DNA of 64,000 nucleotides, from NCBI RefSeq assembly GCF_041438805.1, contig NZ_CP109190.1, positions 8,494,001 to 8,558,000 on the forward strand, in the 5' to 3' direction. This document shows, piece by piece, positions 4,803-24,953 of this stretch (positions are counted from its first letter, which is position 1; each line of letters begins with the position of its first letter). The DNA is from Streptomyces sp. NBC_01707. Its GTDB lineage: Bacteria; Actinomycetota; Actinomycetes; Streptomycetales; Streptomycetaceae. The notes below the pieces were generated by a model. The model was not told the origin of the DNA. It searched no databases and saw only the letters and a program-made list of their open reading frames with translations. Made by a program: the position numbers and the translations under genes.

Positions 4803-6172
4803 CGAAGGTCTCCTGAGAGGTCTATGGCGGCGCCGGCGCCGTCGCGGAGCAACAGGTCGGCGGGGGTCTCGCGACGCACCAGGAGGCGCGCCTGCCCATC
4901 GCGTACGGCGACGACGGCGGGGCGCGGCTGGAAGTTGTAGTTGCTGGCCATGACGTGGTGGTAGGCGCCGGTCGCGGGCACCGCCAGCAGATCGCCTACG
5001 GCCAGGTCGTCCGGGAGCGCGATGTCGGGTACGACGATGTCGCCGCTCTCGCAGTGCCGGCCGACGACGAGTGAGTGGACGGGCCGGCCGGTCAGCCTGC
5101 GGTTGGCGGTCCAGGCGGTGTACGAGGCCTGGTAGAGGGCGGGGCGCAGAGCGTCGCTCATACCGCCGTCGACGGAGACGAAGCGTCGCTCGAGGCCCTG
5201 CTTGACCACACCGACCTCGTAGAGCGTGACACCGGCGGTGCCGATCAGGGAACGGCCCGGCTCCACCGCGAGCCGGACGGAGGCAGGGTCCAGCTCCTCG
5301 GCGACCCCGGCCCGCAGCGCGGCCACGAACTCGGCGGGCGCCAGTCGTTGCTGGCCGGGCACATAGGCGATTCCGGCGCCGCCGCCGAGATCCAGCTCGT
5401 CGATACGGATGCTGTGCCGCTCGGCGAGCATGCGGACGAATGCGGCCACCCGCGAGGCGGCCCGCCGGATGCCGGACGGGTCGAGTATCTGCGAACCCAG
5501 GTGGGAGTGGATGCCCGTCAGGCGCAACGAGGGGATGCCACTGACGGTGAGGACCGCCCGTTCGGCGAATCCACCGTTGACCGGGAAGCCGAACTTCACG
5601 TCGTCGCTGCCGGTGGCCATGTAGTCGTGGGTGTCGGCGGCGACGCCCGGCGCGATGCGCAGATACACGTCCTGGACCCGGCCGGCGTCGGCCGCGTAGC
5701 CGGCGAGCCGGTCGATCTCCTCGGCACAGTCGACGACGACCACCCCGACCCCGTGCTCGACGGCCGCGCTGAGCTCGGCGGGGAGCTTGTTGTTGCCGTG
5801 CAGCACGATGTGGGCGGGGTCGAAGCCCGCGGCGACGGCGAGTTCGAGCTCGCCGACGCTGCAGACGTCCAGGTGCAGACGCTCCTCGCCGACCCAGCGG
5901 ACCATCTCCGGGCAGAGGAAGGCCTTTGACGCGTAGTGCACGCGGTCCGCCCCGGACTCCCGCCACTGGCGGGCCCGCTCGCGGAAGTCCGCCTCGTCCA
6001 CGACGTAGAGCGGCGTGCCGCAGGCCTGGGCGACAGCCGTCATCGGCACGGAACCCACGTGCAGTTCGCCGTCCATGTCCTTGGCGGTGAGCGGCCAGAT
6101 GTCCGGTGCCTCGTCCGGTCCCGCGGCGCGGGTGGGGGCGGCGTCGGGCGAGTTGTCGACTGGTGGAACCAC
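4799..6172 (-). CDS. lysA: Diaminopimelate decarboxylase family PLP enzyme
   Basis: A 457-residue fold-III PLP decarboxylase, expected to convert meso-diaminopimelate to L-lysine. The PLP lysine is in HYASKAF (about K83). SHLGSQI, LDLGGGAGI and EPGRSLIG bind the phosphate and ring, and CESGDI supplies the active-site Cys from the second subunit. An upstream GTG (6181) overlaps the regulator stop but directly abuts AAGGA. The GTG at 6172 lies 8 bases after AAGGAG, so it is preferred. The gene sits between an XRE regulator and an S9 peptidase, away from lysine biosynthesis genes. A catabolic role on DAP released from murein peptides is therefore more likely than biosynthesis; another basic D- or L-amino acid is possible. 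Confidence 0.88.
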   Translation of the reverse strand: MVPPVDNSPDAAPTRAAGPDEAPDIWPLTAKDMDGELHVGSVPMTAVAQACGTPLYVVDEADFRERARQWRESGADRVHYASKAFLCPEMVRWVGEERLHLDVCSVGELELAVAAGFDPAHIVLHGNNKLPAELSAAVEHGVGVVVVDCAEEIDRLAGYAADAGRVQDVYLRIAPGVAADTHDYMATGSDDVKFGFPVNGGFAERAVLTVSGIPSLRLTGIHSHLGSQILDPSGIRRAASRVAAFVRMLAERHSIRIDELDLGGGAGIAYVPGQQRLAPAEFVAALRAGVAEELDPASVRLAVEPGRSLIGTAGVTLYEVGVVKQGLERRFVSVDGGMSDALRPALYQASYTAWTANRRLTGRPVHSLVVGRHCESGDIVVPDIALPDDLAVGDLLAVPATGAYHHVMASNYNFQPRPAVVAVRDGQARLLVRRETPADLLLRDGAGAAIDLSGDLR

Positions 6173-6177
6173 CTGCG

Positions 6178-6801
6178 TCACTCCTTCGTGAGGACGACGA
6201 GCAGAAGCAAGTCGTCGCTGGTCTGCGTGATCTGATGCTCTTCGGATGCGGCGAAATGGCAGGCGTCGGCCGGATTCAGCACGCGGGCGGTGTCCGAGAC
6301 GCGGAGCCGGCACTGTCCGGCCAGCACCACCACGAGTTCCTCTCCGGCGTGCCGGATCGGTCGGGCGTGATCGCCCGGTTCACCCCTTATCAGGCGTGAA
6401 TGGAGCACGGTCGCGTCATGAGCCGTCATGTTCCAGATTCCTTGACCGTCCGACATTGCGGTCAAGCCCGGAAGTGTGGTGAAACGTGCCGGGAACGGGC
6501 TGTTGTCGGAAGTGTCGCCACGTCCGGCGCCGAGCAGCTCGTGCAGTTCGAGACCCAGCACCTTCGCGAGCTGCGCCAGGCTGCGGACGGTCGGATTCGC
6601 CGAGCCGGATTCGATCTGCGACACGTACGCGGGCGAGAGACCTGACCCGGCCGCGGTGGCGGCCAGGGTCAGGCCTGCCGTCCTGCGTGCCGAGGCAACG
6701 ACCTTGGCCAGTCGGGCGGTTGCCCGATCTGCGGCGGACGCCTCGACCGATGAGTCGACCGTCGGCGGGGCGGGGGCTGGAACATCCCTTGACTCAGGCA
6801 T
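6178..6801 (-). CDS. XRE-family regulator with C-terminal cupin domain
   Basis: A 207-residue regulator. A helix-turn-helix spans about residues 30-90 (LTLAATAAGSGLSPAYVSQI, then NPTVRSLAQLAKVLGLELHE), followed by a small cupin domain (RHAGEELVVVLAGQCRLRV) that probably senses a small ligand. First gene of a leftward operon with lysA and the S9 peptidase, and divergent from the rpiR-type regulator; the 114-bp spacer holds repeat sites likely to be its operators. Relatives control amino-acid or polyamine catabolism. The ligand here is unknown. Confidence 0.88.
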   Translation of the reverse strand: MPESRDVPAPAPPTVDSSVEASAADRATARLAKVVASARRTAGLTLAATAAGSGLSPAYVSQIESGSANPTVRSLAQLAKVLGLELHELLGAGRGDTSDNSPFPARFTTLPGLTAMSDGQGIWNMTAHDATVLHSRLIRGEPGDHARPIRHAGEELVVVLAGQCRLRVSDTARVLNPADACHFAASEEHQITQTSDDLLLLVVLTKE

Positions 6802-6876: not shown

Positions 6877-6915
6877 GTCGTAGCGGTGGAGTTCACGGCA
6901 TGGAGGGAGGTTTTG

Positions 6916-7818
6916 ATGTCTGTCCTGACGCCCGACCTCGTGCTTCGACTGTTGGAGCGCGCCGCTGCGCACTGCGGCCCCGGGGCCGTCCGCCTGCACG
7001 CCGTACTCGCTGCGGACTTCCCCGCCGCGCTGTCCCGGCGCCCCGCCCAACTCCTGCGCGCCGCCGACGCGAACGCCGAGGATCTCGACCAGCTGCTCGC
7101 CATGGCGGGCTTCGCCGACACCGAGGACCTGCGTGCCTGCGCCGCCCGTGAGACGGGCCGCCGGCTGCCCGTTCCCGACCAGCGCATCGCCGACCGGGAA
7201 GGTGAACCCGGAGATCGGACCGCGCTGCGCCGTATCCTCGCGCGGGAGCAGGAGAACCTGGCCGGCACCCTCGACGCGCTGCATGCCAACGGCGCCCTGG
7301 AACTCGCCGCGCGCGCCGTGGTCGCGGGCCGCCGCCGTTGGGTGTTCGGTGACATGAAGTCCATCGGGTACGCGGCTCTGGTCGCGGCCGATCTCTCCGC
7401 CGCGCTCCGTGACGTCACCCTCGTCCAGCCCGGAATGGGAGCGGCCGTCACCGCCCTCGCCGACGCAGGCGACCAGGACGTACTGATCACCTTCAGTTTT
7501 CGCAGTTACAGCCGCCACACCGTACGCGTGGCCCGTGAGTTCCATGCGCTGGGCGGCACGGTCGTAGCGATCACCGACGGCTACGACAGCCCGGTGTGCG
7601 CCTACGCCACCCATGTCCTCGCGGTGAACACCCGGAGCGAGTCGCGCACCCACTCGCCGACCGCCGTCACCGCCACCGGCCATCTGCTCGCCTCACTTGC
7701 CGCGGCCGGAGCGAAGGGCGCGGCCCGTCGCGCCCAGCGCCGCCACGCACTCACCTGGGCGCTGAGCGACGGCGAGGGCACCACTCCCGCCGACCCTCCT
7801 GAGAGGACCGCTCCGTGA
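6916..7818 (+). CDS. RpiR/MurR-type transcriptional regulator with SIS domain
   Basis: A 300-residue regulator: an N-terminal RpiR-type helix-turn-helix (residues 1-80) and a C-terminal SIS sugar-phosphate-binding domain (about 110-250; VFGDMKSIGYAALVAADLS and DVLITFSFRSYSRHTVRVA carry the phosphate-binding Ser pattern). MurR of E. coli, which senses MurNAc-6-phosphate, belongs to this family. That is the product of the anmK kinase encoded nearby, so MurNAc-6-P is a reasonable predicted effector. The ATG at 6916 is chosen over an ATG at 6886 because GGAGGGAGG sits just upstream. It is translationally coupled to the next gene by a GTGA overlap and heads the long rightward operon. Confidence 0.88.
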   Translation: MSVLTPDLVLRLLERAAAHCGPGAVRLHAVLAADFPAALSRRPAQLLRAADANAEDLDQLLAMAGFADTEDLRACAARETGRRLPVPDQRIADREGEPGDRTALRRILAREQENLAGTLDALHANGALELAARAVVAGRRRWVFGDMKSIGYAALVAADLSAALRDVTLVQPGMGAAVTALADAGDQDVLITFSFRSYSRHTVRVAREFHALGGTVVAITDGYDSPVCAYATHVLAVNTRSESRTHSPTAVTATGHLLASLAAAGAKGAARRAQRRHALTWALSDGEGTTPADPPERTAP

Positions 7819-9179
7819 TCCCGGAGTTCACCGACCCTTCCGCAGAGCAGTTCTCCCACCACGAGACACTGGCCGCCGACACGATCGACCACTGCTCGCG
7901 GCTGATCCGCTTCGACACCAGCAACTACGGCGGCGGCGATTCGCGCGGTGAGCGGGAAGCCGCCGAATGGGTGGCCGAAGTCCTCGCGGACGCCGGATAC
8001 ACGCCGCAGGTGCTGGAGTCTGAGCCGCGCCGCGCCTCCACCGTGGTCCGGATCCCGGGCGCCGACCCGCTGGCCCCCGCACTGCTGGTCCACGGCCATC
8101 TGGACGTCGTGCCGGCCGAACCCTCCGACTGGTCCTTCGACCCGTTCAGTGGCGAGGTCACCGACGGCGCGGTACGCGGCCGGGGCGCCCTGGACATGAA
8201 GGACATGGACGCGATGATGCTGGCCTGCGCCACCGGATTCGCCCGGACCGGTACCCGCCCGCCGCGCGACATCGTGATGGCGTTCGTCGCCGACGAGGAG
8301 GACACCGGCGCGTACGGAGCGGGGTTCCTCGTCGACAAGCACCCCGGACTCTTCGAGGGTGTCACCGCCGCCATCAGCGAGTCCGGCGGCTACAGCGTCC
8401 ATCTGCCCAACGGCCGCCGTCTCTACCCGGTCGCCACCGGCGAGCGCGGCAGCGCCTGGATGACCCTCAGCGCGCACGGCACCGCGGGCCACGGCTCCCG
8501 CCGCAACCCCGACAACGCCGTGGCCACTCTGGTACGCACCGTGGCCGAACTGACCGCGCACACCTGGCCGGTTCATCTGATCCCGCCGGTCCGGGCGCTG
8601 CTCGACGGGCTCGGGTCGGAACTCGGCATCACGATCGACCCGGCCGACCCGGCGAGCGTCGCCCGACTCGGCGAGGCCGCACGGCTGGTGGAGTCGACCA
8701 TGTCCAACTCGCTCAACCCGACCCGGCTGAACGCCGGATACAAGCACAACGTCATCCCCAGCGAAGCCACCGCCGGTATCGACGGACGCGTCCTGCCCGG
8801 AGCCGAAAAGGAGTTCTTCGCCGCCGTCGACGCGGTGCTCGGTACCAAGGTGACCCGCGAGTTCGCCAGCTGGACCGAGCCGGTCGCCGCCGACCACACC
8901 TCGCCGGAGTTCGCGGCCATGGCGGACGCCCTGCGCGCCCACGACCCGCAGGCCCTGGTCCTGCCGTTCTGCATGTCCGGCGGCACCGACGCCAAGGCCT
9001 TCGCCCGGCTGGGCATCGCCGGCTACGGCTTCGCCCCCGGCACCACCCCGCCCGGTTTCAACAGCTGGAACTACGTACACGGCGTCGACGAGCACGTCCT
9101 CACCGACAGCCTCGCCTTCGGTGTCCGGGTCCTGGACACCTTCCTCCGGGCGGATCCGGCCGGCCCCGCATCGGGCTGA
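7815..9179 (+). CDS. M20 family metallopeptidase
   Basis: A 454-residue cytoplasmic zinc peptidase or deacylase of the DapE/carboxypeptidase type. Metal-binding motifs are VHGHLDVVPAE (first His/Asp), GRGALDMKDMDAM (bridging Asp), VADEEDTGAYGA (catalytic and metal Glu pair) and a late SGGTDAKAF. A dimerisation lid is present in the middle. GTG start overlapping the upstream regulator stop. In this operon it probably cleaves short peptides brought in by the transporter; a dipeptidase role such as Ala-Glu or Glu-DAP cleavage is possible but not readable from sequence. Confidence 0.9.
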   Translation: MIPEFTDPSAEQFSHHETLAADTIDHCSRLIRFDTSNYGGGDSRGEREAAEWVAEVLADAGYTPQVLESEPRRASTVVRIPGADPLAPALLVHGHLDVVPAEPSDWSFDPFSGEVTDGAVRGRGALDMKDMDAMMLACATGFARTGTRPPRDIVMAFVADEEDTGAYGAGFLVDKHPGLFEGVTAAISESGGYSVHLPNGRRLYPVATGERGSAWMTLSAHGTAGHGSRRNPDNAVATLVRTVAELTAHTWPVHLIPPVRALLDGLGSELGITIDPADPASVARLGEAARLVESTMSNSLNPTRLNAGYKHNVIPSEATAGIDGRVLPGAEKEFFAAVDAVLGTKVTREFASWTEPVAADHTSPEFAAMADALRAHDPQALVLPFCMSGGTDAKAFARLGIAGYGFAPGTTPPGFNSWNYVHGVDEHVLTDSLAFGVRVLDTFLRADPAGPASG

Positions 9180-9272
9180 CCCGACGGCCTTCACCGGCCG
9201 CACGACAGACGAGACACGCGGCATCGCCCCGGCTCGCCACAGCAAGCCAGCACACAGCACGTTCACCGGTGC

Positions 9273-9297
9273 GACGCGGACCCCCGAGGTCCGCGTC
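9273..9297 (+). promoter_or_regulatory. 10-bp stem-loop just upstream of the binding-protein gene
   Basis: Perfect inverted repeat GACGCGGACC (9273-9282) and GGTCCGCGTC (9288-9297) with a 5-nt loop, 27 bases before the binding-protein ATG. It may be a weak terminator or an mRNA-stabilising hairpin that raises expression of the binding protein above that of the genes before it. Confidence 0.45.
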
Positions 9298-9324
9298 CTG
9301 CCCACGCTCCTGGATTGGCACGAA

Positions 9325-11169
9325 ATGACACACACAATGGTCCGCAGCTCGACAGGCCGTCGTGCTACGGCACTGGCCGCCGCAGCCCTCACCGGCGCTC
9401 TCGCCCTCGGCTCGGTCGCTCTGGCCCCCGGGGCCGCAGCCGACACCAAGGGCACCACCCTGCGCGCCGCGATGACCGGCAACGGCATCGACTCGCTGAA
9501 TCCGTTCCTGGCGTACTTCGCCGGCTCGCTGGACGTCTTCAGCGCCGTCTACCCCTCACTGAACTCCCTGAACACCGACGGCACTCCCGCGCCGTACCTG
9601 GCGACCAAGTGGACGCCGTCGGCCGACAAGCTCACCTGGACCTTCACCCTCCGCAAGGGACTGAAGTGGTCGGACGGCCGGCCGATCACCGCCGAGGACG
9701 CCGCCTGGACCCTCAATCTGATCCGTACGAACGAGGTGGCAGGCACTGCCAACGGCTCACTCGTCGAGAACTTCGCCTCGGTCACCGCGCCCGACGCCAC
9801 GACGCTGGTCATCAAGACCAAGAAGCCCCAGGCGAACACCCCGTTCGTGTCCATCCCCTACAGCGGTGTGCCGATCGTTCCCAAGCACGTCTGGGAGAAG
9901 CACGTCACGGACCTCAAGGACTTCAAGAACGACTCCGGCGACATCGTCGGTTACGGCCCTTGGACGCTCACGGCCTACAAGCCGGAGCAGTACGTCAAGT
10001 ACGACGCCAACAAGGACTTCGTCCTCGGCGCCCCGAAGTTCGACCACCTGGTCCAGCAGCGGTACAAGGCCGTCGACGGCGCTGTCGCCGCACTGCGCAG
10101 CGGCCAGCTCGACTACGTGTCCGATCTGAATTCCACCCAGTTCAAGGCCCTGCAGAGCGACAAGCGGACCACCGCCTTCCAGAACGCCGGCCGCCGCTGG
10201 ATGAGCGTCGCGATCAACTCCGGTGCCCGTACCCGCTCAGGTAAGAAGATCGGCACCGGGAACCCGGCTCTCGCCGACGCCGCCGTGCGTCGCGCCATCG
10301 CGCAGGCGACCGACAAGCAGACCCTCGTCGACAAGGTGCTCGACGGCCTGGGCCAGGTCGGCTCCGGCTACATCCCGCCCACCTGGAAGCAGTGGGCGTG
10401 GAAGCCCGCCCCGGGCGACGAGCAGTCGTACGACATGGCGAAGGCCAACTCCATACTGGACGAGGCCGGTTACACCAAGGGCAAGGACGGAATCCGTGTC
10501 TCGCCCAAGACGAAGAAGCCGCTGAAGCTGCGCCTGGGCACCCACTCCGACGCCGCCACCGACACCCAGATCGCCACCTACCTCACCGGGTGGATGAAGC
10601 AGATCGGTGTCGAGCTGACCGCCGAGCCGCTGAGCTCCACCAAGCTCAACGACGATCTCGCCAAGGGCGACTGGGACCTGCTGATGGACGGCTGGGGCAC
10701 CGGCCCCGACCCGACGTACCTGCTCTCCATCCAGAACTGCGACGCGCTGCCGCTGGACGACGGCACGAACGGCTCCACGGACTCCTTCCACTGCGACAAG
10801 GAGTTCGACAAGCTCTTCAAGCAGCAGGTCACCGAGTTCGACCCGGCGCAGCGCGCGGCGACCGTCGGCAAGATGCAGGACATCCTCTACAAGGCCGACA
10901 ACAACGTCATCCTGTACTACGCCACGGGCCTGAGCGCGACGAACGCCCGTACGGTGAAGAACCTCGCGGTCGGCAAGGCGGACTCCGCGGGCGTCTACCC
11001 GATGCAGTACACCTTCGGCCAGTTCCGCAGCGCCACCCCGGTCGCCGCCGTGAAGGAAGCCTCGTCGGGCTCCACCACCCTGTGGGCCGGCATCGGCATC
11101 GGCGTGCTCGTCGTGGCGGGCCTCGCCTTCGGCATCAAGCGCCGCTCGTCGGCCGACGAGCGGGAGTAA
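9325..11169 (+). CDS. Peptide ABC transporter substrate-binding protein with C-terminal membrane anchor
   Basis: A 614-residue SBP_bac_5 family protein expected to capture oligopeptides outside the membrane and deliver them to the permeases encoded next. Residues 1-45 form a Sec signal (basic start, Ala/Leu-rich core, AAADT cleavage region). There is no lipobox Cys, unlike most Gram-positive binding proteins. Instead the C-terminus has a Gly/Val/Leu helix near 582-604 followed by KRRSS, so the protein is probably tethered by its tail. The family motif GLKWSDGRPITAEDAAWTL is present. An ATG at 9337 is an alternative start. A close paralogue lies at 28212-30029. Confidence 0.93.
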   Translation: MTHTMVRSSTGRRATALAAAALTGALALGSVALAPGAAADTKGTTLRAAMTGNGIDSLNPFLAYFAGSLDVFSAVYPSLNSLNTDGTPAPYLATKWTPSADKLTWTFTLRKGLKWSDGRPITAEDAAWTLNLIRTNEVAGTANGSLVENFASVTAPDATTLVIKTKKPQANTPFVSIPYSGVPIVPKHVWEKHVTDLKDFKNDSGDIVGYGPWTLTAYKPEQYVKYDANKDFVLGAPKFDHLVQQRYKAVDGAVAALRSGQLDYVSDLNSTQFKALQSDKRTTAFQNAGRRWMSVAINSGARTRSGKKIGTGNPALADAAVRRAIAQATDKQTLVDKVLDGLGQVGSGYIPPTWKQWAWKPAPGDEQSYDMAKANSILDEAGYTKGKDGIRVSPKTKKPLKLRLGTHSDAATDTQIATYLTGWMKQIGVELTAEPLSSTKLNDDLAKGDWDLLMDGWGTGPDPTYLLSIQNCDALPLDDGTNGSTDSFHCDKEFDKLFKQQVTEFDPAQRAATVGKMQDILYKADNNVILYYATGLSATNARTVKNLAVGKADSAGVYPMQYTFGQFRSATPVAAVKEASSGSTTLWAGIGIGVLVVAGLAFGIKRRSSADERE

Positions 11170-11181
11170 CCACCTCGCCCG

Positions 11182-11217
11182 CCCCGCGCACCTGGTCGCA
11201 GCACCGGGTGTGCGGGG
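11182..11217 (+). promoter_or_regulatory. Intercistronic stem-loop after the binding-protein gene
   Basis: CCCCGCGCACC (11182-11192) pairs with GGTGTGCGGGG (11207-11217) with one G-U pair and a 14-nt loop. It lies 12 bases after the binding-protein stop and before the permease gene. Such hairpins commonly protect the binding-protein mRNA or partly terminate transcription. Confidence 0.5.
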
Positions 11218-11245
11218 TCCACCAGACCGAGCAGATCGAGAACTC

Positions 11246-12316
11246 ATGACCATTACGTCCGATACGTCCGACAGCGCGAGCGCCGTCGGCCCCGTGCCCG
11301 GGAGCGACGCGGCCGACGCCGCCTCCCGCCCGGGCTCGGGGCGGGCAGACTTCCTCCGCTTCCTGGGCAGCAAGCTCGCCGCAGCTGCCGTGAGCTTCGT
11401 CATCGTCCTGGGCATCGGCTTCGTGATCTTCCAGCTGATGCCCTCGGACCCGGTCCAGACGATGACCCGCGGCCGGCCCACCAGCGATGCCCAGATGGCT
11501 CATCTGCGCCAGACGCTGGGCCTGGACCAGCCGGTGTGGGAGCGGTTCCTGCACTTCGTCAACGACATCGTCCACCTGGATCTGGGCCGTTCCTGGCAGT
11601 ACCAGCAGGATGTCTCCTCCCTCATCGGCGAACGCGTCGGCCCCACCCTGCTCCTGATGGGCACGGCCACCGCGATATCCGTGGTGGTCGGCCTGTGGCT
11701 GGGGGTGCGCAGCGGATGGCGGCACGGCAGCCTCTTCGACAAGATCACCTCCTCGGCGGCGCTCACCTTCTGGTCAGTCCCCACCTACTGGCTCGGCATG
11801 ATCCTGCTGATCTGGCTCAGCGTCGGCCTCGATCTGTTCCCCTCCGGCGGCATGTCCGACCCGTCGCTCGGTGCCACCGGCTTCGGCCATGTCCTCGACG
11901 TGGCCCGTCACATGGTGCTGCCGTGTCTGACGATGGTGCTCGTGGTGTTCGCCCAGTACGTGTCGATCATGCGCTCGTCGATCATCGATGAGCTGGGCAG
12001 TCCGTATCTGCTGACGGCCCGGGCCAAGGGACTCGTCGACGACGCCGTTCGCCGCAAGCACGCCGTGCCCAACGCGCTGCTGCCCTCGGTCACCGTGATC
12101 TTTCTTCACCTGGGCACGATGGTCGGCGGAGCGATCACGGTCGAGACCGTGTTCAGCTGGCCGGGTCTCGGCTCGCTGACCATCGAGGCACTCAAAGTGC
12201 CCGACATCCCCGTACTGCAGGGCACGTTCATCATCTTCAGCGCCAGTGTGATCCTGATGAACCTCCTCGCCGACGTGCTCTACCGCTTCCTCGACCCCCG
12301 GGTGCGTGTGCGATGA
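11246..12316 (+). CDS. Peptide ABC transporter permease (DppB type)
   Basis: A 356-residue inner permease. After a polar N-terminus there are about six membrane helices (FLGSKLAAAAVSFVIVLGIG is the first). The DppB-type segment MPSDPVQTMTRGRPTSDAQM follows the first helix. The ATPase-contact loop with the EAA-like pattern is near LLTARAKGLVDDAVRRKHAV. The C-terminal block GGAITVETVFSWPGLGSL is typical. It overlaps the next permease by ATGA. It should form the translocation channel with that protein. Confidence 0.93.
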   Translation: MTITSDTSDSASAVGPVPGSDAADAASRPGSGRADFLRFLGSKLAAAAVSFVIVLGIGFVIFQLMPSDPVQTMTRGRPTSDAQMAHLRQTLGLDQPVWERFLHFVNDIVHLDLGRSWQYQQDVSSLIGERVGPTLLLMGTATAISVVVGLWLGVRSGWRHGSLFDKITSSAALTFWSVPTYWLGMILLIWLSVGLDLFPSGGMSDPSLGATGFGHVLDVARHMVLPCLTMVLVVFAQYVSIMRSSIIDELGSPYLLTARAKGLVDDAVRRKHAVPNALLPSVTVIFLHLGTMVGGAITVETVFSWPGLGSLTIEALKVPDIPVLQGTFIIFSASVILMNLLADVLYRFLDPRVRVR

Positions 12317-13227
12317 CGATTTCCGACACCACTGACATCACCGCCGCGGCAGCCCCGGCCGGTTCACCTCCCCGGCTGGCCTCCGTCGGCCGTTTCATGC
12401 GCGCCTACGCCAAGCGCCCGTCCGGTCTCGTCGGCCTGGGCATCCTGCTCGTCGCCACGGTCCTCGCGCTCTGCGCCCCGCTCTTCATAGGCCCCGAGCA
12501 GCTCGACGTCACCAAGGTCGACGGCCCGCTGCTCTCCGCGCCCGGTTCCGGCTACCTCCTCGGGACCGACCAGGCCGGCCGCTCCGTGGTGGACCTGCTG
12601 ATCTGGGGTTCGCGCTCGTCGCTGTCCATCGGTGTCATCGCGACCGTGCTCACCATGGTGCTCGGCTCGACGATCGGACTGCTCGCGGGCCATTACCCGG
12701 GCAAGCTCGGCAAGGCCCTGATGCACGTCACCGACTGGTTCATCGCGCTGCCCAGCCTGCCGCTGGCCATCTCCCTCGCCGCGGTCCTGGGGCAGGGCAC
12801 CGCGTCCATCACCATCGCCATCGCGGTGACCTCCTGGACGTCCACCGCCCGCCTGGTCCGTGCCCAGACCCTCGCCGTGGAGGCCCGCCCGTTCATCGAG
12901 CGCGCCAAGGTCCTCGGCGCGGGCAACCGCCAGGTGATGGTTCGTCATGTCCTGCCGAACGTGGCCCCGTTGATCCTGGTCTCCGCCACCCTCACCGTCG
13001 CCTCGGCGATCCTCTCCGAGGCCACCCTGACCTTCCTCGGTCTCGGCGACCCGACCGGCGTCTCCTGGGGTTCCATGCTCAATGCCGCCTTCTACCAAGG
13101 CGCCATGACCTCCGGTGCCTGGTGGTACGTCGGTACGCCCGGCATCGCGATCCTTCTCGTCGTCCTCGGCTTCACCCTCACCGGGCGTGCCGTGGAACAC
13201 GTCCTCAACCCGCGGATGGTGGGCTGA
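12313..13227 (+). CDS. Peptide ABC transporter permease (DppC type)
   Basis: A 304-residue permease with the DppC N-terminal cytoplasmic segment, an extracellular block ending in GSGYLLGTDQAGRSVVDLL (the DppC family signature LGTDxxGRD) and five to six membrane helices. The EAA loop ERAKVLGAGNRQVMVRHVLPN contacts the ATPase. It starts inside the stop of the preceding permease and is followed 2 bases later by the first ATPase gene. Confidence 0.93.
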   Translation: MTISDTTDITAAAAPAGSPPRLASVGRFMRAYAKRPSGLVGLGILLVATVLALCAPLFIGPEQLDVTKVDGPLLSAPGSGYLLGTDQAGRSVVDLLIWGSRSSLSIGVIATVLTMVLGSTIGLLAGHYPGKLGKALMHVTDWFIALPSLPLAISLAAVLGQGTASITIAIAVTSWTSTARLVRAQTLAVEARPFIERAKVLGAGNRQVMVRHVLPNVAPLILVSATLTVASAILSEATLTFLGLGDPTGVSWGSMLNAAFYQGAMTSGAWWYVGTPGIAILLVVLGFTLTGRAVEHVLNPRMVG

Positions 13228-13229
13228 CC

Positions 13230-14222
13230 ATGACCCTGCTCGACGTACGCGACCTCTCCGTCACCTACCGCGACGGCGACAGCCTCATCCCCGCCGTGCG
13301 CGGTGTCAGTTTCACCCTGGACCGGGGCGAGACCCTCGGCGTGGCCGGCGAATCCGGCTCCGGCAAGTCGACCATGGTGCTCAGCCTGCTGCGGCTGCTG
13401 CCCAAGAGCGCCAAGGTCACCGGACAGGTGCTGTACGAAGGCGAGGACCTGCTCGCCGCCAAGTGGTCCGCACTGCGCACCGTGCGCTGGAACGGCGCGT
13501 CCGTGGTCTTCCAGGGCGCCATGAGTGCGCTCAACCCCGTGCGCCCCATCGGTGAGCAGATCTGCGAGCCGATCCTGCTCCACGAGAAGGTGTCCCCGCG
13601 CACCGCCCGCGAACGCGCCGCCGAACTGCTCGACAGCGTCGGCATATCGCGGCGGCGCATGGGCAGCTACCCGCACGAGTTCTCCGGCGGCCAGCGTCAG
13701 CGCATCATGATCGCCATGGCCCTCGCCTGCCGCCCCGACCTGATCATCGCCGACGAGCCCACCACCGCCCTCGATGTGATGGTGCAGGCGCAGATCATGG
13801 AGCTCTTCACCGAGCTGGTACGGAACTCCGGCGTCGGCGTCATCATGATCAGTCACGACCTCTCGGTGCTCTCCGAGATGTGCGGCCGGCTCGCCGTGAT
13901 GTACGCCGGCGAGATCGTCGAGACCGGCCCTTCGCAGCAGGTCATCGAAGCTCCCCGGCACCCGTACACCGAGGCACTGGCCAGGGCGTTCCCCACCATC
14001 GGTGACCCGGCGTCCCGGTTCGCGCCCTCCGGACTGCCCGGCGACCCGCCGGACGTCGCGGCGCTCGGCACGGGCTGCGCCTTCGTCCCGCGCTGTGTGC
14101 ACGCCGTCGACGCCTGCCGTACGAAGGCCGTCGAGCTGTGGCCCGCGGGCGATCGGCGCAGCGCCGCCTGTCTGCGCGTTCTGGACGCCCACACCCCCGT
14201 AACCGAAGGGAGCCAGGCATGA
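13230..14222 (+). CDS. Peptide ABC transporter ATP-binding protein (DppD type)
   Basis: A 330-residue ATPase. Walker A GESGSGKST is near residues 39-47, Q-loop VVFQGAM near 92, signature SGGQRQRI near 152, Walker B LIIADEPTTALDV near 175, and switch His in ISHDLSVLSEM. The C-terminal oligopeptide/dipeptide domain with GCAFVPRCVHAVDAC is present, so the protein is full length. It overlaps the next ATPase by ATGA; the pair should energise the two permeases. This is a complete importer, separate from the one whose ATPases lie at the left window edge. Confidence 0.94.
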   Translation: MTLLDVRDLSVTYRDGDSLIPAVRGVSFTLDRGETLGVAGESGSGKSTMVLSLLRLLPKSAKVTGQVLYEGEDLLAAKWSALRTVRWNGASVVFQGAMSALNPVRPIGEQICEPILLHEKVSPRTARERAAELLDSVGISRRRMGSYPHEFSGGQRQRIMIAMALACRPDLIIADEPTTALDVMVQAQIMELFTELVRNSGVGVIMISHDLSVLSEMCGRLAVMYAGEIVETGPSQQVIEAPRHPYTEALARAFPTIGDPASRFAPSGLPGDPPDVAALGTGCAFVPRCVHAVDACRTKAVELWPAGDRRSAACLRVLDAHTPVTEGSQA

Positions 14223-15205
14223 GTACCGCCGCCCCGGCCCTGGAGGTCAGCGACCTCCGCATCACCTACCCGGCGCGCGCGGGCCGTGGGCCCGCCCGCG
14301 CCGTGGACGGAGCCAACCTGACCGTCGGCCAGGGCGAGATCGTCGCCCTGATCGGCGAGTCGGGCTGCGGCAAGTCCACCCTCGCCCGCGCCCTCGTCGG
14401 CCTCATCAAGCCCACCAGCGGCGAGATCCGCTACCAGGGCAAGCCCCTCACCTACTCCGCCCGGGCGCTCAAGGAGTACCGCCGCCACGCCCAGCTGGTA
14501 CTCCAGGACCCGGGCGGCGCCCTCAACCCGCGGCAGAACGTCTACGACGCCGTCGCCGAGGGGCCCCGGCTGCACGGCACGACGGATGAACTCAACTCCC
14601 GTGTGCACACGGCTCTTTCACGTGCCGGGCTGCGTCCTCCGGAGCGGTTCCTGCACCGGTTCCCGCACGAGATGTCCGGCGGCCAGCAGCAGCGCGTCGT
14701 CATCGCGGGAGCCCTGGCCCTGGACCCCTCGGTGATCGTCGCCGACGAGCCGGTCGCATCCCTCGACGCCTCGGTGCGGGGCGAGATCCTCAAGCTGATA
14801 CTCGAACTCCGCGACAGCCTGGGCCTGTCCGCCCTCGTCGTCAGCCACGACCTGGGTCTGGCCTGGAACATCGCCGACCGGGTCGCCGTGATGTACCTCG
14901 GCCGGATCGTCGAGGTCGGCACCGTCGAGGAGGTGCTGCTGCACCCCAAGCACCCGTACACCAAGGCCCTGCTCTCGGTGCTGCCCGAGGCCGGACGTGA
15001 CCAACGGCCGACCGTGCTGACGGGTGAGCCCCCGGACCCGACCCGGATCCCGTCCGGCTGCCGCTTCCACCCGCGCTGCCCGCTCTGGCCGGAACTGAAG
15101 GGCGCCGAGCGGGCCGCCGCCGGCTGCGACACACGCGAGCTGCCCGTACTGACCGCCGACCCGGCTCCCGCCCAGGCGGCCTGCCATCTCACCCATGGCC
15201 GCTGA
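14219..15205 (+). CDS. Peptide ABC transporter ATP-binding protein (DppF type)
   Basis: A 328-residue partner ATPase. Walker A GESGCGKST is near residues 45-53, Q-loop LVLQDPGGAL, signature SGGQQQRV, Walker B VIVADEPVASLDASV, switch His VSHDLGLAWNI, then the dipeptide-family C-terminal segment SGCRFHPRCPLW. The ATG overlaps the upstream stop. The next gene (GNAT) starts 11 bases before its end, so transporter and enzymes are one transcriptional unit. Confidence 0.94.
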   Translation: MSTAAPALEVSDLRITYPARAGRGPARAVDGANLTVGQGEIVALIGESGCGKSTLARALVGLIKPTSGEIRYQGKPLTYSARALKEYRRHAQLVLQDPGGALNPRQNVYDAVAEGPRLHGTTDELNSRVHTALSRAGLRPPERFLHRFPHEMSGGQQQRVVIAGALALDPSVIVADEPVASLDASVRGEILKLILELRDSLGLSALVVSHDLGLAWNIADRVAVMYLGRIVEVGTVEEVLLHPKHPYTKALLSVLPEAGRDQRPTVLTGEPPDPTRIPSGCRFHPRCPLWPELKGAERAAAGCDTRELPVLTADPAPAQAACHLTHGR

Positions 15206-15995
15206 GCCCGCACTCGTCGTACGCGACGTCGAAGGTCCTGCCGCCATGGCGGCCTGTATCGGTCTGTATGCCGAGGTGATGGGGCTGCGGCCGTCGGACG
15301 GGGGCCTCAACCCCCGCCTGCTGACCGCGATCCAGTCCAACGGAGGCATCGTCGTCGCCGCGTACGAGGGCGACGGCGACCCGGCGCGGCCGGTCGGATT
15401 CGCATACAGCTTCCTGGCCCGCGAGGGGGGCGGCGAGCTGTTCCAGTTCTCACAGCTCGCCGTGGTCGCCCGCCACCTCCAGGGGCAGGGAGTGGGGCGG
15501 CTCCTCAAGCATGCGCAGCGGGAGCGGACCCTGGCCATGGGACTGACCCGCATCCGCTGGTCGTACGACCCCCTGAAGACCCGCAACGCGCACTTCAACC
15601 TGGATGTGCTCGGCGGGCGGGTGCGCGTGCTCAAGCCGTCGATGTACGGCGGCGAGGGCTTCGGCGACGACGCGGGCGAACCCACCGACCGATTCCTCCT
15701 CGACTGGGACCTGACGCGACCGGCCATGGTCCAGCCGGGACTCCCCGAGCGGGCCTGGCGACCCGGTGAGCGTCTCGCCCACGGCGACGACCTGCTGATC
15801 GCCGTACCCGCCCGATGGGATCTGCACCGCACCGTCATAGGAGCGGCCGCGGCCGCCGCGCTGCGCACCTCGCTCAGGGAGACTTTCATCGAGGCCCTGA
15901 CCACCCATGTCGGGGTCTCCTGCCTGCGTGTCACCGACGACCTCGCGGTCTACCGGTTCGTTCCGCGCGGCACCGACCAGGAGGGCGCCTCATGA
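15195..15995 (+). CDS. GNAT acyltransferase of the COG3375 type, likely D-amino-acid N-succinyltransferase
   Basis: A 266-residue GNAT-superfamily acyltransferase. The acyl-CoA loop is around FSQLAVVARHLQGQGVGRLL, and the block WSYDPLKTRNAHFNLDVLG is characteristic of COG3375. In Geobacillus kaustophilus a GNAT enzyme works with N-succinylamino-acid racemase and an M20 desuccinylase to convert D- to L-amino acids. Here the same three genes follow one another (GNAT, racemase, M20) with overlaps or a 4-bp gap, so succinyl-CoA:D-amino-acid N-succinyltransferase is the predicted activity. Family and context are clear; acyl donor and substrate are inferred. Confidence 0.82.
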   Translation: MAAEPALVVRDVEGPAAMAACIGLYAEVMGLRPSDGGLNPRLLTAIQSNGGIVVAAYEGDGDPARPVGFAYSFLAREGGGELFQFSQLAVVARHLQGQGVGRLLKHAQRERTLAMGLTRIRWSYDPLKTRNAHFNLDVLGGRVRVLKPSMYGGEGFGDDAGEPTDRFLLDWDLTRPAMVQPGLPERAWRPGERLAHGDDLLIAVPARWDLHRTVIGAAAAAALRTSLRETFIEALTTHVGVSCLRVTDDLAVYRFVPRGTDQEGAS

Positions 15996-17122
15996 CGATC
16001 ACCATCACCGAGATCGAACTCTCCCTTGTACGACTGGACTTGATCCATGAGTTCGAGACCAGCTCCCACCGTAAGTCGCACCTCGACCACATCGTGGTCA
16101 GGGCGACCGCATCCGACGGCACGGTCGGCTGGGGCGAGTGCGCCTCGCCCAGCGACCCGTACTACTGCAGCGAATCCACCGAGAGTTGCTGGTACGTACT
16201 GAGCGAGCACCTCGCCCCCATGGTCCTCGGCCACGCCTGGGAGCACCCCGACGACGCGACGGCGCTGACCAACCGCCTCTCGGGCAACCACTTCGCCCGC
16301 GCCGGGCTCGACATGGCCTGCTGGGACCTGTACGGGCAGGCCCGCGGCGAGACCCTCGCGACCCTCGTCGGTGGCACCGCCGAGAGGATCAGCGCGGGTG
16401 TCAGTCTCGGCATCGAGCCGACCGTCGACGCCCTGCTGGATCAGGTCGCCCGGCATGTCGGTGACGGCTACCGCCGCATCAAGCTCAAGTGCCGACCGGG
16501 CTGGGACCTGGAGCCGGTACGGGCAGTACGCGCGGCCTTCCCCGGTATCGCCCTCCAGGTCGACGCCAACACCGGCTACCGGGCCGACTCCGCCGAGCAC
16601 CTGGCCGCCCTCACCGCCCTCGACGACCAGGGCCTGCTGATGATCGAGCAGCCCTTCGCCGAGGACGACCTGCTCGGCCACGCCGGCCTCGCCGCCCGGC
16701 TCGACACCCCGGTCTGTCTCGACGAGTCGATCACCTCACCCGCCGTACTGGCCACCGCACTGCACCTGGGCGCGGCCGACATCGTCAACATCAAGGTGTC
16801 CCGGCTCGGCGGAATCGGACCGTCCGTCGCAGTGCACGACGTGTGCCGCGAGGCCGGAGTCCCCGTGTGGTGCGGGGGAATGCACGAGTTCGGCATCGGG
16901 CGCGCGGCCAACCTCGCCGTCGCCTCACTGCCGGGCTTCACCCTGCCCTCGGACGTCTCCGGCTCCGACAAGTACTACCGCCAGGACATCGTCACCCCGC
17001 CGATCCGCGCCACCGAGGGCCTGGTCCCGGTGCCCGACGCCCGCCCGGGCCTCGGTGTCCATGTCGACGAGTCCCTGATCCGGGCGAACCGGCTGAGGCA
17101 CGCCGTACTGAAGGAAGGCTGA
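15992..17122 (+). CDS. N-succinylamino-acid racemase / OSB-synthase family enolase-superfamily enzyme
   Basis: A 376-residue TIM-barrel racemase. The catalytic KxK is K164-K166 (RRIKLK), metal ligands are D191 (QVDANTGY), E219 (IEQPF) and D244 (CLDESI), and the second general base is K268 (NIKVSRLGG). The C-terminal run PVWCGGMHEFGIGRAANLA and the SGSDKYY segment place it in the NSAR/MenC group rather than the YkfB dipeptide-epimerase group. Streptomycetes make menaquinone by the futalosine route, so an OSB-synthase role is unlikely. The flanking GNAT and M20 genes argue for racemising N-succinyl-D-amino acids. Overlaps the GNAT by ATGA. Confidence 0.87.
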   Translation: MTITITEIELSLVRLDLIHEFETSSHRKSHLDHIVVRATASDGTVGWGECASPSDPYYCSESTESCWYVLSEHLAPMVLGHAWEHPDDATALTNRLSGNHFARAGLDMACWDLYGQARGETLATLVGGTAERISAGVSLGIEPTVDALLDQVARHVGDGYRRIKLKCRPGWDLEPVRAVRAAFPGIALQVDANTGYRADSAEHLAALTALDDQGLLMIEQPFAEDDLLGHAGLAARLDTPVCLDESITSPAVLATALHLGAADIVNIKVSRLGGIGPSVAVHDVCREAGVPVWCGGMHEFGIGRAANLAVASLPGFTLPSDVSGSDKYYRQDIVTPPIRATEGLVPVPDARPGLGVHVDESLIRANRLRHAVLKEG

Positions 17123-17126
17123 ACCG

Positions 17127-18266
17127 ATGCGATTCGACGCCGAGCAGCTGCGCGATCGGGCACTCACCCGCCTGGAGGCCCTCGTCATGGCCGAGAGCCC
17201 GTCGGGAGAACCCGAACTCCTCCGGATCGTGAACGCCGATCTGGAGCAGGCCTATCGGGCTCTCGGAGCCCGGGTCACCCGCGAGAGGGGACCGGACGGC
17301 GACCACCTGGTCTGCGAGTGGCCGGGTACGGCCCCCGACGACGCACACATACTCCTCATCGGCCACAGCGACACCGTCCTTCCCGTCGGCACCACCGTCG
17401 AGCGTCCCTTCACGCTCCACGAGGACGGCGACACGGTCACCGGCCCCGGCGTGTACGACATGAAGGGCTCCCTCGTCGCCATCGAGCTGGCCTTCGTTCT
17501 CCTTCGCGAACAGGGCCTCTCCCCGTCCCGCCCGGTGCGCCTGGTCGTCGTCAACGACGAGGAGATCGGCTCCCCGGACGGCCGCCGCATCATCGCCGCC
17601 CACGCCGAGGGCGCCTTCGCAGCCCTCGGCTTCGAACCGCCGCTGCCCGGCGGCACACTGAAGACCGGCAGGCGGGGAGTGGCCCGGGTGCGTATCGACG
17701 TCCAGGGCGTGGAGGCGCACGCCGGGCTCGACGCCTCACTCGGCACCTCAGCGATCGACGAACTCATCGACCAGATCGCGGTGGTGCGGGGCGCCGTCCC
17801 GGCGCCGCCCGCCGCCGAGTTCAACATCGGCAGCATCAGCGGTGGCACCCGCGCCAACGTCGTCGCAGGGACGGCTTCGGCCGAGATCGGCCTGCGCTTC
17901 GCCACGCCTGCCGCCGAGGCTGCCGTACTCGGCGCCCTCGACTCCCTCACTCCGGTCCGCCCGGACGCAAAGCTGACCGTCACCCGGCTGTCGTACCGCC
18001 CCGCCTGGGAGCGCGACCCGGCAAACCCCCTTGCTGCGCGACTCGCCGCGCTCGCGGCCGAGCGGGGCACCGATCTGCTCACCGGCACCTCGGGCGGCGC
18101 CGGTGACACCAACCTCACCGGCTCGCTCGGCATACCCACCGCCGACGGCCTCGGCCCGGACGGCGCGGGCGCCCATTCCATGTCCGAACGCGCCTCGGTC
18201 GCCTCACTTCTGGACCGTGCCGCTCTGCTCGCCGCCTACCTCATCGCACCCGAGGAGTCCGCATGA
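17127..18266 (+). CDS. M20 family deacylase, likely N-succinyl-L-amino-acid desuccinylase
   Basis: A 379-residue zinc hydrolase of the ArgE/DapE/CPG2 group. Motifs: LLIGHSDTVLPVG, GVYDMKGSLVAIE, VVNDEEIGSPDGR, a dimerisation domain with VEAHAGLD, and a final GPDGAGAHSMSERASV carrying the last metal His. Starts 4 bases after the racemase with GAAGG upstream, and its stop overlaps the LD-carboxypeptidase start. By position it is the third enzyme of the succinylation/racemisation/desuccinylation route and would release the free L-amino acid. A simple dipeptidase is the alternative. Confidence 0.87.
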   Translation: MRFDAEQLRDRALTRLEALVMAESPSGEPELLRIVNADLEQAYRALGARVTRERGPDGDHLVCEWPGTAPDDAHILLIGHSDTVLPVGTTVERPFTLHEDGDTVTGPGVYDMKGSLVAIELAFVLLREQGLSPSRPVRLVVVNDEEIGSPDGRRIIAAHAEGAFAALGFEPPLPGGTLKTGRRGVARVRIDVQGVEAHAGLDASLGTSAIDELIDQIAVVRGAVPAPPAAEFNIGSISGGTRANVVAGTASAEIGLRFATPAAEAAVLGALDSLTPVRPDAKLTVTRLSYRPAWERDPANPLAARLAALAAERGTDLLTGTSGGAGDTNLTGSLGIPTADGLGPDGAGAHSMSERASVASLLDRAALLAAYLIAPEESA

Positions 18267-19201
18267 CCTCCGCCGAAAACACAGGCCTGCTCCGCCCGCC
18301 CGCTCTCGGAGCAGGTGACCGGGTCGCCGTCACCGCCGCCTCGGGCGCGCCGCGCGCCGAGGACCTGGAGAAGGGCGTCGCGGCCCTGGAGAGTCTCGGT
18401 CTGATCGTCGACGTGCTGCCCTCGGCGCGCGCCGCCGGCGTCCCATTCGACTATCTCGCAGGCGACGACGCGACCCGCGCCGCCGACCTCACGACCGCTC
18501 TCACCGACCCCCGCTACCGTGCCGTCTTCATGGCCCGCGGCGGCTACGGCGCCCAACGCACCCTGGAGGGCGTCGACTTCGCCTCCCTGGGCACCCCCAC
18601 GCCACGTGTGCTGGTCGGCTACTCGGACGTCACCGCGCTCATCGAGGCGGTCTCGGTGCACCTGGGCTGGGTGTCACTGTTCGGCCCGATGCCCGTCTCG
18701 GACGACTTCTCCGCCGGTTCGTACGCCTTCGACTCCCTGGCCAGGACCCTTTTCACCCCGGCCGAGGCCACCCGGCTCTCCTTCCCCGCGGCCCGCACCC
18801 TGGTCGGTGGCACGGCCGAGGGCGTCACGCTCGGCGGCACCGCCAGCCTGCTCTGCTCCTCGCTCGCGACCCCCACCTCGCGCCCGGCACGCGGCGGCAT
18901 CCTCTTCCTGGAGGACGTCGACGAGGAGCCGTACCGGCTGGACCGCATCCTCACCCAGCTGCGCAGGTCCGGCTACCTCGACGGGGTCGCGGGCATCCTC
19001 TGCGGCACCTTCACCGGCTGCGGTGACCCGGCCGAGATCGACGCCCTGCTCATCGACCGGCTCGGTGACCTCGGGGCCCCCGTGCTGGCCGGCGCCGACA
19101 TCGGCCACGGTGTCCCGATGCAGACCTTCCCGGTCGGCGTACCGGCCCGCCTCGATGTCGACGGGGGCACGCTCACCTTCGACGGACCGGTGCTCGCCTG
19201 A
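18263..19201 (+). CDS. ldcA: LD-carboxypeptidase (S66 family, muramoyltetrapeptide carboxypeptidase)
   Basis: A 312-residue cytoplasmic serine peptidase that removes the terminal D-Ala from murein tetrapeptide. The family landmark ARGGYGAQR is near residue 91, the nucleophile is S121 in VGYSDVTAL, and the other triad members are E217 (ILFLEDVDEEPYRLDR) and H282 (ADIGHGVPMQTFP). No signal peptide, as expected for a recycling enzyme. It closes the operon (ATGA overlap with the M20 gene) and is the strongest marker that the imported peptides are peptidoglycan stem peptides. The D-Ala it releases would be a natural substrate for the D-to-L trio just upstream. Confidence 0.92.
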   Translation: MTSAENTGLLRPPALGAGDRVAVTAASGAPRAEDLEKGVAALESLGLIVDVLPSARAAGVPFDYLAGDDATRAADLTTALTDPRYRAVFMARGGYGAQRTLEGVDFASLGTPTPRVLVGYSDVTALIEAVSVHLGWVSLFGPMPVSDDFSAGSYAFDSLARTLFTPAEATRLSFPAARTLVGGTAEGVTLGGTASLLCSSLATPTSRPARGGILFLEDVDEEPYRLDRILTQLRRSGYLDGVAGILCGTFTGCGDPAEIDALLIDRLGDLGAPVLAGADIGHGVPMQTFPVGVPARLDVDGGTLTFDGPVLA

Positions 19202-19371: not shown

Positions 19372-19422
19372 TTGAAGTTCTTCACTCTGAGGGGTTGTTT
19401 TCAATCTAGTGAAGCTCTTCAA
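19372..19422. promoter_or_regulatory. Two related palindromes upstream of the second XRE-cupin gene (candidate operators)
   Basis: TTGAAGTTCTTCACT (19372-19386) and AGTGAAGCTCTTCAA (19408-19422) each contain the palindrome TGAAG-N2-CTTCA, and the two 15-mers are reverse complements of each other except for the two central bases. Centres are 37 bp apart. They lie 106 bases before the regulator GTG in an AT-rich pocket of otherwise GC-rich DNA, as expected for an autoregulated promoter. The exact -10/-35 positions are not clear. Confidence 0.6.
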
Positions 19423-19527
19423 TATGACCAAGCCCGGGTCGCCGAGGCCGCACATGCTCCGCCGAAGCGCTCGTTGTTCACCGGCGAAGCTCCTTCCGTC
19501 CCCACGCCACTGAGGCAGGTCGAAGCT

Positions 19528-20136
19528 GTGAGTGACGCAAACTACGTACCCCAGGACGGTCAGCCGGATCTGGACGCGCTCGTCGCCACAGTGGGAATCC
19601 AGATCAAGGCATTGCGCAAGCAAGCCGGTTACACCCTCGACGACCTCAGCCGAGGATCCGGTGTGAGCACCGGCCTCATCAGTCAGATCGAACGGGGCAA
19701 GGGCAATCCGTCCTTCGCCACCCTGGTCCAGATCGCGCACGGGCTGGACATCCCCATCGGCAGGCTCTTCCACCTGACCGAACAGATCAGCCCCGTGGTG
19801 CGGCGTGCCGAACGGCGCACTCTCGACTTCCACGGCACCGATGGACTCGACGACGCCAGCTACGAGCTGCTCACCCCTACGCTGAACGGCGCGCTCGAGG
19901 TCCTCTGGGTCGAGACCCAGCCGGGGCATGACACCAGCAGCACGCCCTTCCGCCACAACGGCGAAGAGTTCGGAATCGTTCTCTCCGGCGTCAAGGACGT
20001 CTATCTCGACGGCGTCCGGCACCGGCTCGAGGCCGGTGACTCGATCACGTACTCGTCGAGTACGCCGCACTGGTACGCCAACCCCGGCGACGAGCCGTCG
20101 ACTTCCGTCTGGGTCATCACCCCGCCCAGCTGGTAG
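19528..20136 (+). CDS. XRE-family regulator with C-terminal cupin domain
   Basis: A 202-residue regulator. The helix-turn-helix spans about residues 25-80 (KQAGYTLDDLSRGSGVSTGL, then ISQIERGKGNPSFATLVQIA), and the cupin is near 120-195 (TPFRHNGEEFGIVLSGVKDV and EAGDSITYSSSTPHWYANPG). The GTG at 19528 is chosen because upstream in-frame codons are not protein-like and overlap the palindromes. It precedes the transporter/enzyme genes on the same strand by about 100 bases and is the likely local controller. The cupin ligand is probably an intermediate of the downstream pathway. Confidence 0.88.
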   Translation: MSDANYVPQDGQPDLDALVATVGIQIKALRKQAGYTLDDLSRGSGVSTGLISQIERGKGNPSFATLVQIAHGLDIPIGRLFHLTEQISPVVRRAERRTLDFHGTDGLDDASYELLTPTLNGALEVLWVETQPGHDTSSTPFRHNGEEFGIVLSGVKDVYLDGVRHRLEAGDSITYSSSTPHWYANPGDEPSTSVWVITPPSW

Positions 20137-20240
20137 GCGGCCTCCGCCGTACTCCCCTTCCTCAACGCCCCGGCCGTCGGCCCGGGCGCAGGTCCCGCAC
20201 GGCCTGAGCCGTGCGCCTTTCACCGCGAGGTGCCCCCGCT

Positions 20241-21557: not shown

Positions 21558-21570
21558 AAGGAGTCCCACC

Positions 21571-24940: not shown

Positions 24941-24953
24941 AGGAGAGCAACTC

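Follow-up and report, generated by a model that had tools for sequence, protein, structure and literature searches.

In this work, we analyzed a window of 64,000 nucleotides (positions 8,494,001 to 8,558,000) from the main contig of the 9.9-Mb genome of Streptomyces sp. NBC_01707. The window contains a bidirectional gene cluster combining an acyltransferase of the GNAT family, an N-succinylamino acid racemase (NSAR), and a hydrolase of the M20 family (M20b), referred to below as the trio, with a Dpp-type importer, an LdcA-like peptidase of family S66, and the diaminopimelate (DAP) decarboxylase LysA. To judge from its gene content, this cluster probably scavenges peptides containing d-amino acids, most likely the stem peptides of bacterial cell walls. 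In our best reading, it would be a peptide-scavenging analogue of the dpp-ykf operon of Bacillus. The promiscuity of NSAR/o-succinylbenzoate synthase (OSBS) enzymes has been studied extensively, yet their natural role is unclear in many bacteria. The presence of an importer, d-peptidases, and a DAP decarboxylase with the trio offers a concrete, testable source of substrates for NSAR.

Gene order and predicted chemistry

The operon (positions 6886 to 19201, forward strand) comprises a gene for a SIS-domain protein followed by the genes for a first M20 hydrolase (M20a), the Dpp-type importer, GNAT-NSAR-M20b, and S66 (Table 1). The last four genes (15195 to 19201) form the 3′ end of the operon, with neighbors that overlap or are 4 bp apart, which confirms the four-gene run proposed in a previous sequence-only reading of this DNA. 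From the permease gene permB (11246) to the end of the S66 gene (19201), every gene overlaps its successor or is spaced by ≤4 bp. Further upstream, permB is separated by 76 bp from the gene for the substrate-binding protein (SBP), itself located 145 bp downstream from the M20a gene (the SBP start was picked by eye), and the SIS and M20a genes overlap by 4 bp. Depending on the start chosen, the next gene downstream from S66 is 170 to 210 bp away. A divergent unit (6801 to 2772, reverse strand) encodes a regulator with helix-turn-helix (HTH) and cupin domains, LysA, and a peptidase of family S9.

The families, catalytic motifs, order, and conservation of these genes were read directly from the sequence. 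The racemase, whose closest named relatives are from Streptomyces, scored 294 bits against the NCBIfam model TIGR01928 (o-succinylbenzoate synthase; cutoff, 201), and its best matches in the PDB were N-acylamino acid racemases (1sja, 303 bits; 1r0m, 300 bits), versus 111 bits for the epimerase 1jpm. The catalytic set consists of K164 and K166 (KxK motif), K268, and the metal ligands D191, E219, and D244, in agreement with the alignment with 1sja. Residue R271 aligns with the second-shell arginine of the Amycolatopsis NSAR/OSBS (R266), which is replaced by Q in 7s8w. The window racemase thus resembles the Amycolatopsis enzymes (1sja and 7s8w) in its catalytic lysines, its metal ligands, and the arginine position altered in 7s8w. 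It differs from them by its C-terminal motif, CGGMHEFGIGRA instead of CGGMIETGLGRA. These residues and the 1sja score bear out the previous assignment of the racemase to the NSAR type.

The GNAT protein had no sequence family match in library scans. Its AlphaFold2 model (pLDDT of 94) was assigned the GNAT fold by Foldseek and VIA-align, the structural matches barely covering residues past ~176. Its acyl-CoA motif is QGQGVG (residues 96 to 101). We propose that this protein is a succinyl-CoA:d-amino acid N-succinyltransferase and that M20b, for which the best PDB match was carboxypeptidase G2, is an N-succinyl-l-amino acid desuccinylase.

We infer the substrates, the succinyl group, the order of the steps, and the regulation as follows. 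The Dpp-type ABC transporter would import peptides containing d residues. S66 LdcA enzymes cleave the LD bond of the murein tetrapeptide, and the window S66 would release the C-terminal d residue (d-Ala or a noncanonical d-amino acid at position 4) by cutting an l-d bond. M20a and S9, plus an M55 d-aminopeptidase in sister strains, would cut the remaining peptide. Free d-amino acids would then be N-succinylated by GNAT at the expense of succinyl-CoA, NSAR would racemize the resulting N-succinylamino acids, and M20b would hydrolyze only the N-succinyl-l form, this specificity pulling the flow irreversibly from d to l. The divergently encoded LysA would decarboxylate diaminopimelate to lysine, and the SIS/RpiR-like and HTH-cupin proteins are likely regulators.

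This chemistry is modeled on that of Geobacillus kaustophilus, for which Sakai et al. in 2006 reportedly described a GNAT-NSAR-M20 trio that irreversibly converts d- to l-amino acids. The window shares with that pathway the same three enzyme families encoded by adjacent genes. The G. kaustophilus trio is not known to be joined to an importer, an S66 peptidase, or LysA. A review mentions an NSAR/l-succinylase pair of G. kaustophilus and the broad range of N-acyl groups accepted by NSARs (PMC7431475), so that acyl groups besides succinyl could also be used in the window pathway.

As annotated, the corresponding operon of Bacillus velezensis (L136) reads M55-permeases-ATPase-SBP-LD-carboxypeptidase-dipeptide epimerase-C40-ATPase. 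The dpp-ykf operon of Bacillus comprises DppA (M55), DppBCDE, YkfA (S66), YkfB (epimerase), YkfC, and YkfD. Both systems associate, in one operon, a Dpp-type importer and an S66 peptidase with an isomerase of the enolase superfamily predicted to act on d residues, and the M55 d-aminopeptidase is shared with sister strains of the window only. In contrast, GNAT, NSAR, and M20 occupy in the window the place of the dipeptide epimerase and of the C40 protein. The window additionally contains M20a, the SIS gene, LysA, and S9, and its operon has neither C40 nor M55. We tentatively suggest, with less than even confidence, that in these actinomycetes the trio replaces YkfB in a dpp-ykf-like salvage of muropeptides. 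Stem peptides would be imported and fully hydrolyzed, d-amino acids (d-Ala, d-Glu, and possibly noncanonical ones) irreversibly inverted as N-succinyl derivatives, and DAP converted to lysine by a dedicated LysA. If true, this would be a second route, besides dipeptide epimerization, for regaining d-amino acids from cell wall peptides, and one that could also handle noncanonical d-amino acids. Each of the components (the trio, LdcA, dpp-ykf, and LysA) is known on its own. We found no description of the trio combined with an importer, d-peptidases, and LysA in titles and abstracts of the Creative Commons-licensed literature in PubMed Central, in line with the previous remark that the coupling of this route to cell wall recycling appears to be undescribed.

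Conservation of the trio and its peptidase neighbors

Neighboring genes were identified by profile searches that extended ≤10 kb to either side of NSAR genes in two sets of loci. Set A consisted of the best 80 of 288 NSAR relatives from one scan of GTDB species contigs (close loci). Set B consisted of 58 broader NSAR loci from family and phylum samples, i.e., 60 loci minus L139 and L161, which repeat L072 and L049. Fisher tests were made against 38 control stretches (of 40 chosen, 2 did not exist) taken from part of these genomes, and the resulting p-values overstate independence because the loci within a set are related. Absences are uncertain where a contig ends <10 kb from NSAR. Since few seeds, chosen from these loci, served to construct the profiles, distant family members can escape them; L106, which has permC, ATPases, and an S12 gene, went undetected as an importer locus.

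GNAT was found in 76/80 close loci, 51/58 broader loci, and 1/38 controls, and M20 was found in 74/80, 18/58, and 0/38, respectively. S66 was present in only 6 of the close loci and in none of set B. The constant element is thus GNAT-NSAR, joined almost constantly by M20 in close relatives and only rarely by S66. The GNAT-NSAR-M20 trio of the sequence-only reading is therefore real and strongly conserved, whereas the co-occurrence with S66, for which that reading proposed a genome search, is rare. The count of six leaves out L041 and L043, in which S66 is at a contig start or next to the other half of the operon, and L055 and L103, in which ~10 kb of apparently unrelated genes separate it from NSAR. 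In Streptomyces adustus (L041), the S66 gene opens contig C560, which would fit a broken assembly. In Planosporangium (L043), SIS-M20a-SBP genes lie on a different contig beside a divergent HTH-cupin-S9-S66 unit, and this contig presumably carries the other half of the operon. The genome-wide search for S66 covered 25 of the 80 close loci. NSAR was found in 27 genomes of a 150-genome family sample. In a 346-genome phylum sample, 69 genomes had NSAR (E value of ≤1e-60), 56 had M55 (1e-20), and 41 had relatives of this S66 (1e-15). By the listed coordinates, S66 was within 10 kb of NSAR in only 2 of the 69 NSAR genomes (G000 and G048). The trio-S66 form is therefore lineage restricted. A fixed trio-S66 pair is rejected on the counts of 6/80 and 0/58.

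The trio was more regularly accompanied by d-peptidases where an importer was present. The Dpp-type importer was detected in nine close loci (L038 to L043, L049, L066, and L108), all of which also contain M55, S66, S12, or M19, versus 3 of the 71 loci in which no importer was detected. For set B, the corresponding proportions were 7/10 and 7/48. Enrichment of the importer relative to the controls had p-values of 0.056 in set A and 0.0055 in set B. M55 was present in eight sister loci (L040 to L044, L046, L049, and L066), being located between NSAR and M20b in the Streptomyces sisters, and was absent from that position in the window clade (window, L038, and L039). In set A, the Fisher tests gave p-values of 0.053 for M55 by itself and 0.18 for S66 by itself. 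S66 is one among several d-peptidases accompanying the trio rather than its fixed partner.

A locus of the same genome at 2.39 Mb (L133) combines related M20, S9, and S66 genes in the arrangement M55-M20a-S9-S66, its S66 being 46% identical to that of the window. It differs from the window by the absence of an importer and of the GNAT-NSAR-M20b trio. The M55-M20-S9-S66 set was also present in all six other S66 stretches examined from the same genus (L238, L239, and L249 to L252) and in L272, and no M55 was found in 14 stretches from other groups. In the S66 tree, the Leifsonia sequence (L108) grouped with the Streptomyces M55-M20a-S9-S66 paralogues (95/85), outside the window clade. This position disfavors a single origin of the trio-S66 link and makes it likely, if not proven, that a trio-importer locus acquired S66 independently, since the Leifsonia S66 forms a long branch.

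Other neighbors of the trio genes or of S66 were noted. The SIS-domain protein of the RpiR/MurR type was found in 57/80 close loci (e.g., L070, 9367 to 10005) and 0/58 broader loci. The window copy matched the PDB entries 3sho (RpiR family; E value of 7e-07) and, weakly, 7en5 (MurR; 0.009), and Pfam detected no HTH domain at 1e-5 in the two SIS copies scanned. On a Priestia megaterium plasmid, a full RpiR regulator (HTH_6 plus SIS) adjoins NSAR. Nine loci from Actinomadura and Pseudonocardia (L054, L059, L061, L062, L067, L069, L077, L078, and L095) add to the trio a class A β-lactamase family protein, a DctM/DcuC-type carrier, and an Amidohydro_3 enzyme. A Streptomyces plasmid (L138, 2352 to 5732) encodes a 1,127-residue protein with S9 peptidase and β-lactamase (S12) domains, located between an oligopeptide importer and M20-GNAT-NSAR. 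In Actinomadura sp. DC4, a protein resembling d-serine/d-threonine deaminases (by eye, first 110 residues) is encoded near S66 (L276, 11246 to 12484).

Substrate source and competing explanations

The DAP decarboxylase of the divergent unit points to cell wall stem peptides. The best PDB match of LysA was 2o0t (385 bits). LysA also follows the divergent regulator in Streptomyces hygroscopicus (73%) and Streptomyces mangrovisoli (75%) (L291 and L292), strains in which NSAR is 75 to 77% identical to that of the window. The edge of lysA is visible in L038 and L039, the S9 peptidase is 62% identical to the L291 copy, and L291, L292, and L269 each have a homologue of the HTH-cupin regulator at the equivalent position. 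Together, S66, the neighboring lysA, and the dpp-ykf-like gene set suggest stem peptides as the substrates. The coupling to the cell wall put forward in the sequence-only reading was partly retained, on account of the importer in the operon, LysA in the divergent unit, and M55 in sister strains. Since the importer argues for peptide uptake more than for recycling of the bacterium's own wall, import and salvage fits better than the recycling originally envisaged. The d-center of meso-DAP, which had also been brought up in connection with the trio, is better assigned to the neighboring LysA than to NSAR. Streptomyces walls carry ll-DAP.

Several observations weigh against the scavenging of stem peptides by the cluster. 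S66 is missing from set B and was rarely close to NSAR in the phylum sample, as indicated above, and five of the nine importer loci belong to mutually close Streptomyces relatives. Pooling of M55, S66, S12, and M19 gave 12/80 in set A versus 2/38 in the controls (p = 0.22, not significant) and a modest enrichment in set B (14/58; p = 0.023). The sole M55 match of the genome is that at 2.39 Mb, outside the window operon, which itself has no YkfC-like γ-d-Glu-DAP endopeptidase. LysA was not found between the regulator and S9 in Planosporangium (L269). Finally, inversion of d-Ala and d-Glu by alanine and glutamate racemases would not consume succinyl-CoA.

The last point would also fit a general catabolism of d-peptides and N-acyl-d-amino acids from varied environmental sources, such as nonribosomal peptides or N-acyl-d-amino acids, with stem peptides not being the main substrate. 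An Amidohydro_3 amidohydrolase (a putative N-acyl-d-amino acid deacylase) was found in 23/80 close loci, and S12 and M19 peptidases plus importers occur beside some more distant NSARs. Addition of the Amidohydro_3 type to the pooled peptidases raised the counts to 35/80 in set A (p = 1.2e-5) and 18/58 in set B (p = 2.0e-3), versus 2/38 in the controls. However, S66 and the DAP decarboxylase point specifically at stem peptides, and the gene set parallels dpp-ykf. We therefore regard general catabolism as a credible but rather unlikely account of the window cluster.

Uptake-linked detoxification or immunity, in which an MccF-like S66 and a GNAT akin to phosphinothricin and tabtoxin acetyltransferases would inactivate imported peptide antibiotics, appears improbable. 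The S66 family includes MccF, and PA4866, phosphinothricin acetyltransferases, and the tabtoxin resistance protein were among the structures matching GNAT. However, structural ranks of GNAT proteins say little on their substrate, LdcA chains (6uuk and 5z01) outranked MccF as PDB matches of S66 (7e-29 versus 1e-18), and it is hard to see what the racemase, the M20 hydrolase, and the DAP decarboxylase would contribute to such a function. The window S66 has the triad motifs (S121, E217, and H282) and scored below the cutoff of the LdcA equivalog NF008424 of NCBIfam (131 versus 378 bits), of which it is, by sequence, a divergent relative.

Two further explanations concern the racemase itself. A YkfB-like l-Ala-d/l-Glu dipeptide epimerase would be expected beside S66 by analogy with dpp-ykf, GNAT and M20 then serving something else. 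The best match of B. velezensis YkfB in the whole genome was the window NSAR, with only 27% identity. The FDFD sequence of YkfB, containing the C-terminal DxD motif characteristic of this epimerase, aligned with FTLP (residues 316 to 319; T317 and P319) of the racemase. Given the absence of DxD, the low similarity, and the large difference between the 1sja and 1jpm scores, the epimerase is rejected as very improbable. The function of OSBS in menaquinone synthesis, suggested by the TIGR01928 score and by the public records that label NSAR relatives o-succinylbenzoate synthase or menC, is least credible of all, since GNAT and M20 regularly accompany the gene and, in this genome, two matches to the MqnA/MqnD family but none to MenD exceeded the cutoff (11 weaker MenD matches among those listed; other Men genes were not searched). 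The label is, for the same reason, probably wrong for the window gene. An OSBS-only or a dipeptide epimerase role, either of which would have refuted the sequence-only reading, is thus unlikely, a conclusion to which the conservation of R271 also contributes.

Features of the cluster and its surroundings

Table 1. Genes of the bidirectional cluster, in window coordinates
Product	Position	Strand	Basis
SIS-domain protein, RpiR/MurR-related, first gene of the operon	6886..7818	+	Pfam SIS, 49 bits
M20a hydrolase, PRK07906 subfamily	7815..9179	+	NCBIfam NF005913, 628 bits (cutoff, 382)
Dipeptide/oligopeptide ABC transporter SBP	9325..11169	+	NCBIfam Nik/Opp/Dpp SBP models, all below cutoff
ABC permease, DppB type (permB)	11246..12316	+	NCBIfam Opp/DppB models, all below cutoff
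ABC permease, DppC type (permC)	12313..13227	+	NCBIfam Opp/DppC models, all below cutoff
ABC ATPase, DppD type	13227..14222	+	NCBIfam OppD/DppD models, best below cutoff
ABC ATPase, DppF type	14219..15205	+	NCBIfam DppF/OppF models, best below cutoff
GNAT acyltransferase, proposed succinyl-CoA:d-amino acid N-succinyltransferase	15195..15995	+	GNAT fold; putative activity
NSAR/OSBS-type enzyme of the enolase superfamily	15992..17122	+	TIGR01928, 1sja, catalytic residues
M20b hydrolase, CPG2-like, proposed N-succinyl-l-amino acid desuccinylase	17127..18266	+	Pfam M20 and dimerization domains
S66 peptidase, LdcA-like LD-carboxypeptidase	18263..19201	+	Pfam S66 N and C domains
HTH-cupin regulator, head of the divergent unit	6178..6801	-	Pfam HTH_3, Cupin_2
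Diaminopimelate decarboxylase LysA, probable GTG start	4799..6181	-	TIGR01048, 419.5 bits (cutoff, 297.9)
S9 peptidase (prolyl oligopeptidase family)	2772..4802	-	Pfam Peptidase_S9, 148.5 bits

Downstream from the operon, positions 19372 to 28113 (forward strand) encode an HTH-cupin protein, an MFS carrier, a FAD oxidoreductase, a CaiB-type CoA transferase, a DHDPS-like protein, an SDR protein, an aldehyde dehydrogenase, and a protein that, judged by eye, resembles enoyl-CoA hydratases. This region looks like a separate unit for the catabolism of carboxylic acids. Further downstream, 9 to 14 kb off the operon (28212 to 33226, reverse strand), are genes for a second oligopeptide SBP, 56 to 64% identical to the SBPs of L038 to L042, L049, and L269, for an NlpC/P60 protein, and for an Rv2525c-like glycoside hydrolase. 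The latter two proteins both carry peptidoglycan-binding domains, and the NlpC/P60 protein (30217 to 31320, 11 kb from the operon) is probably secreted.

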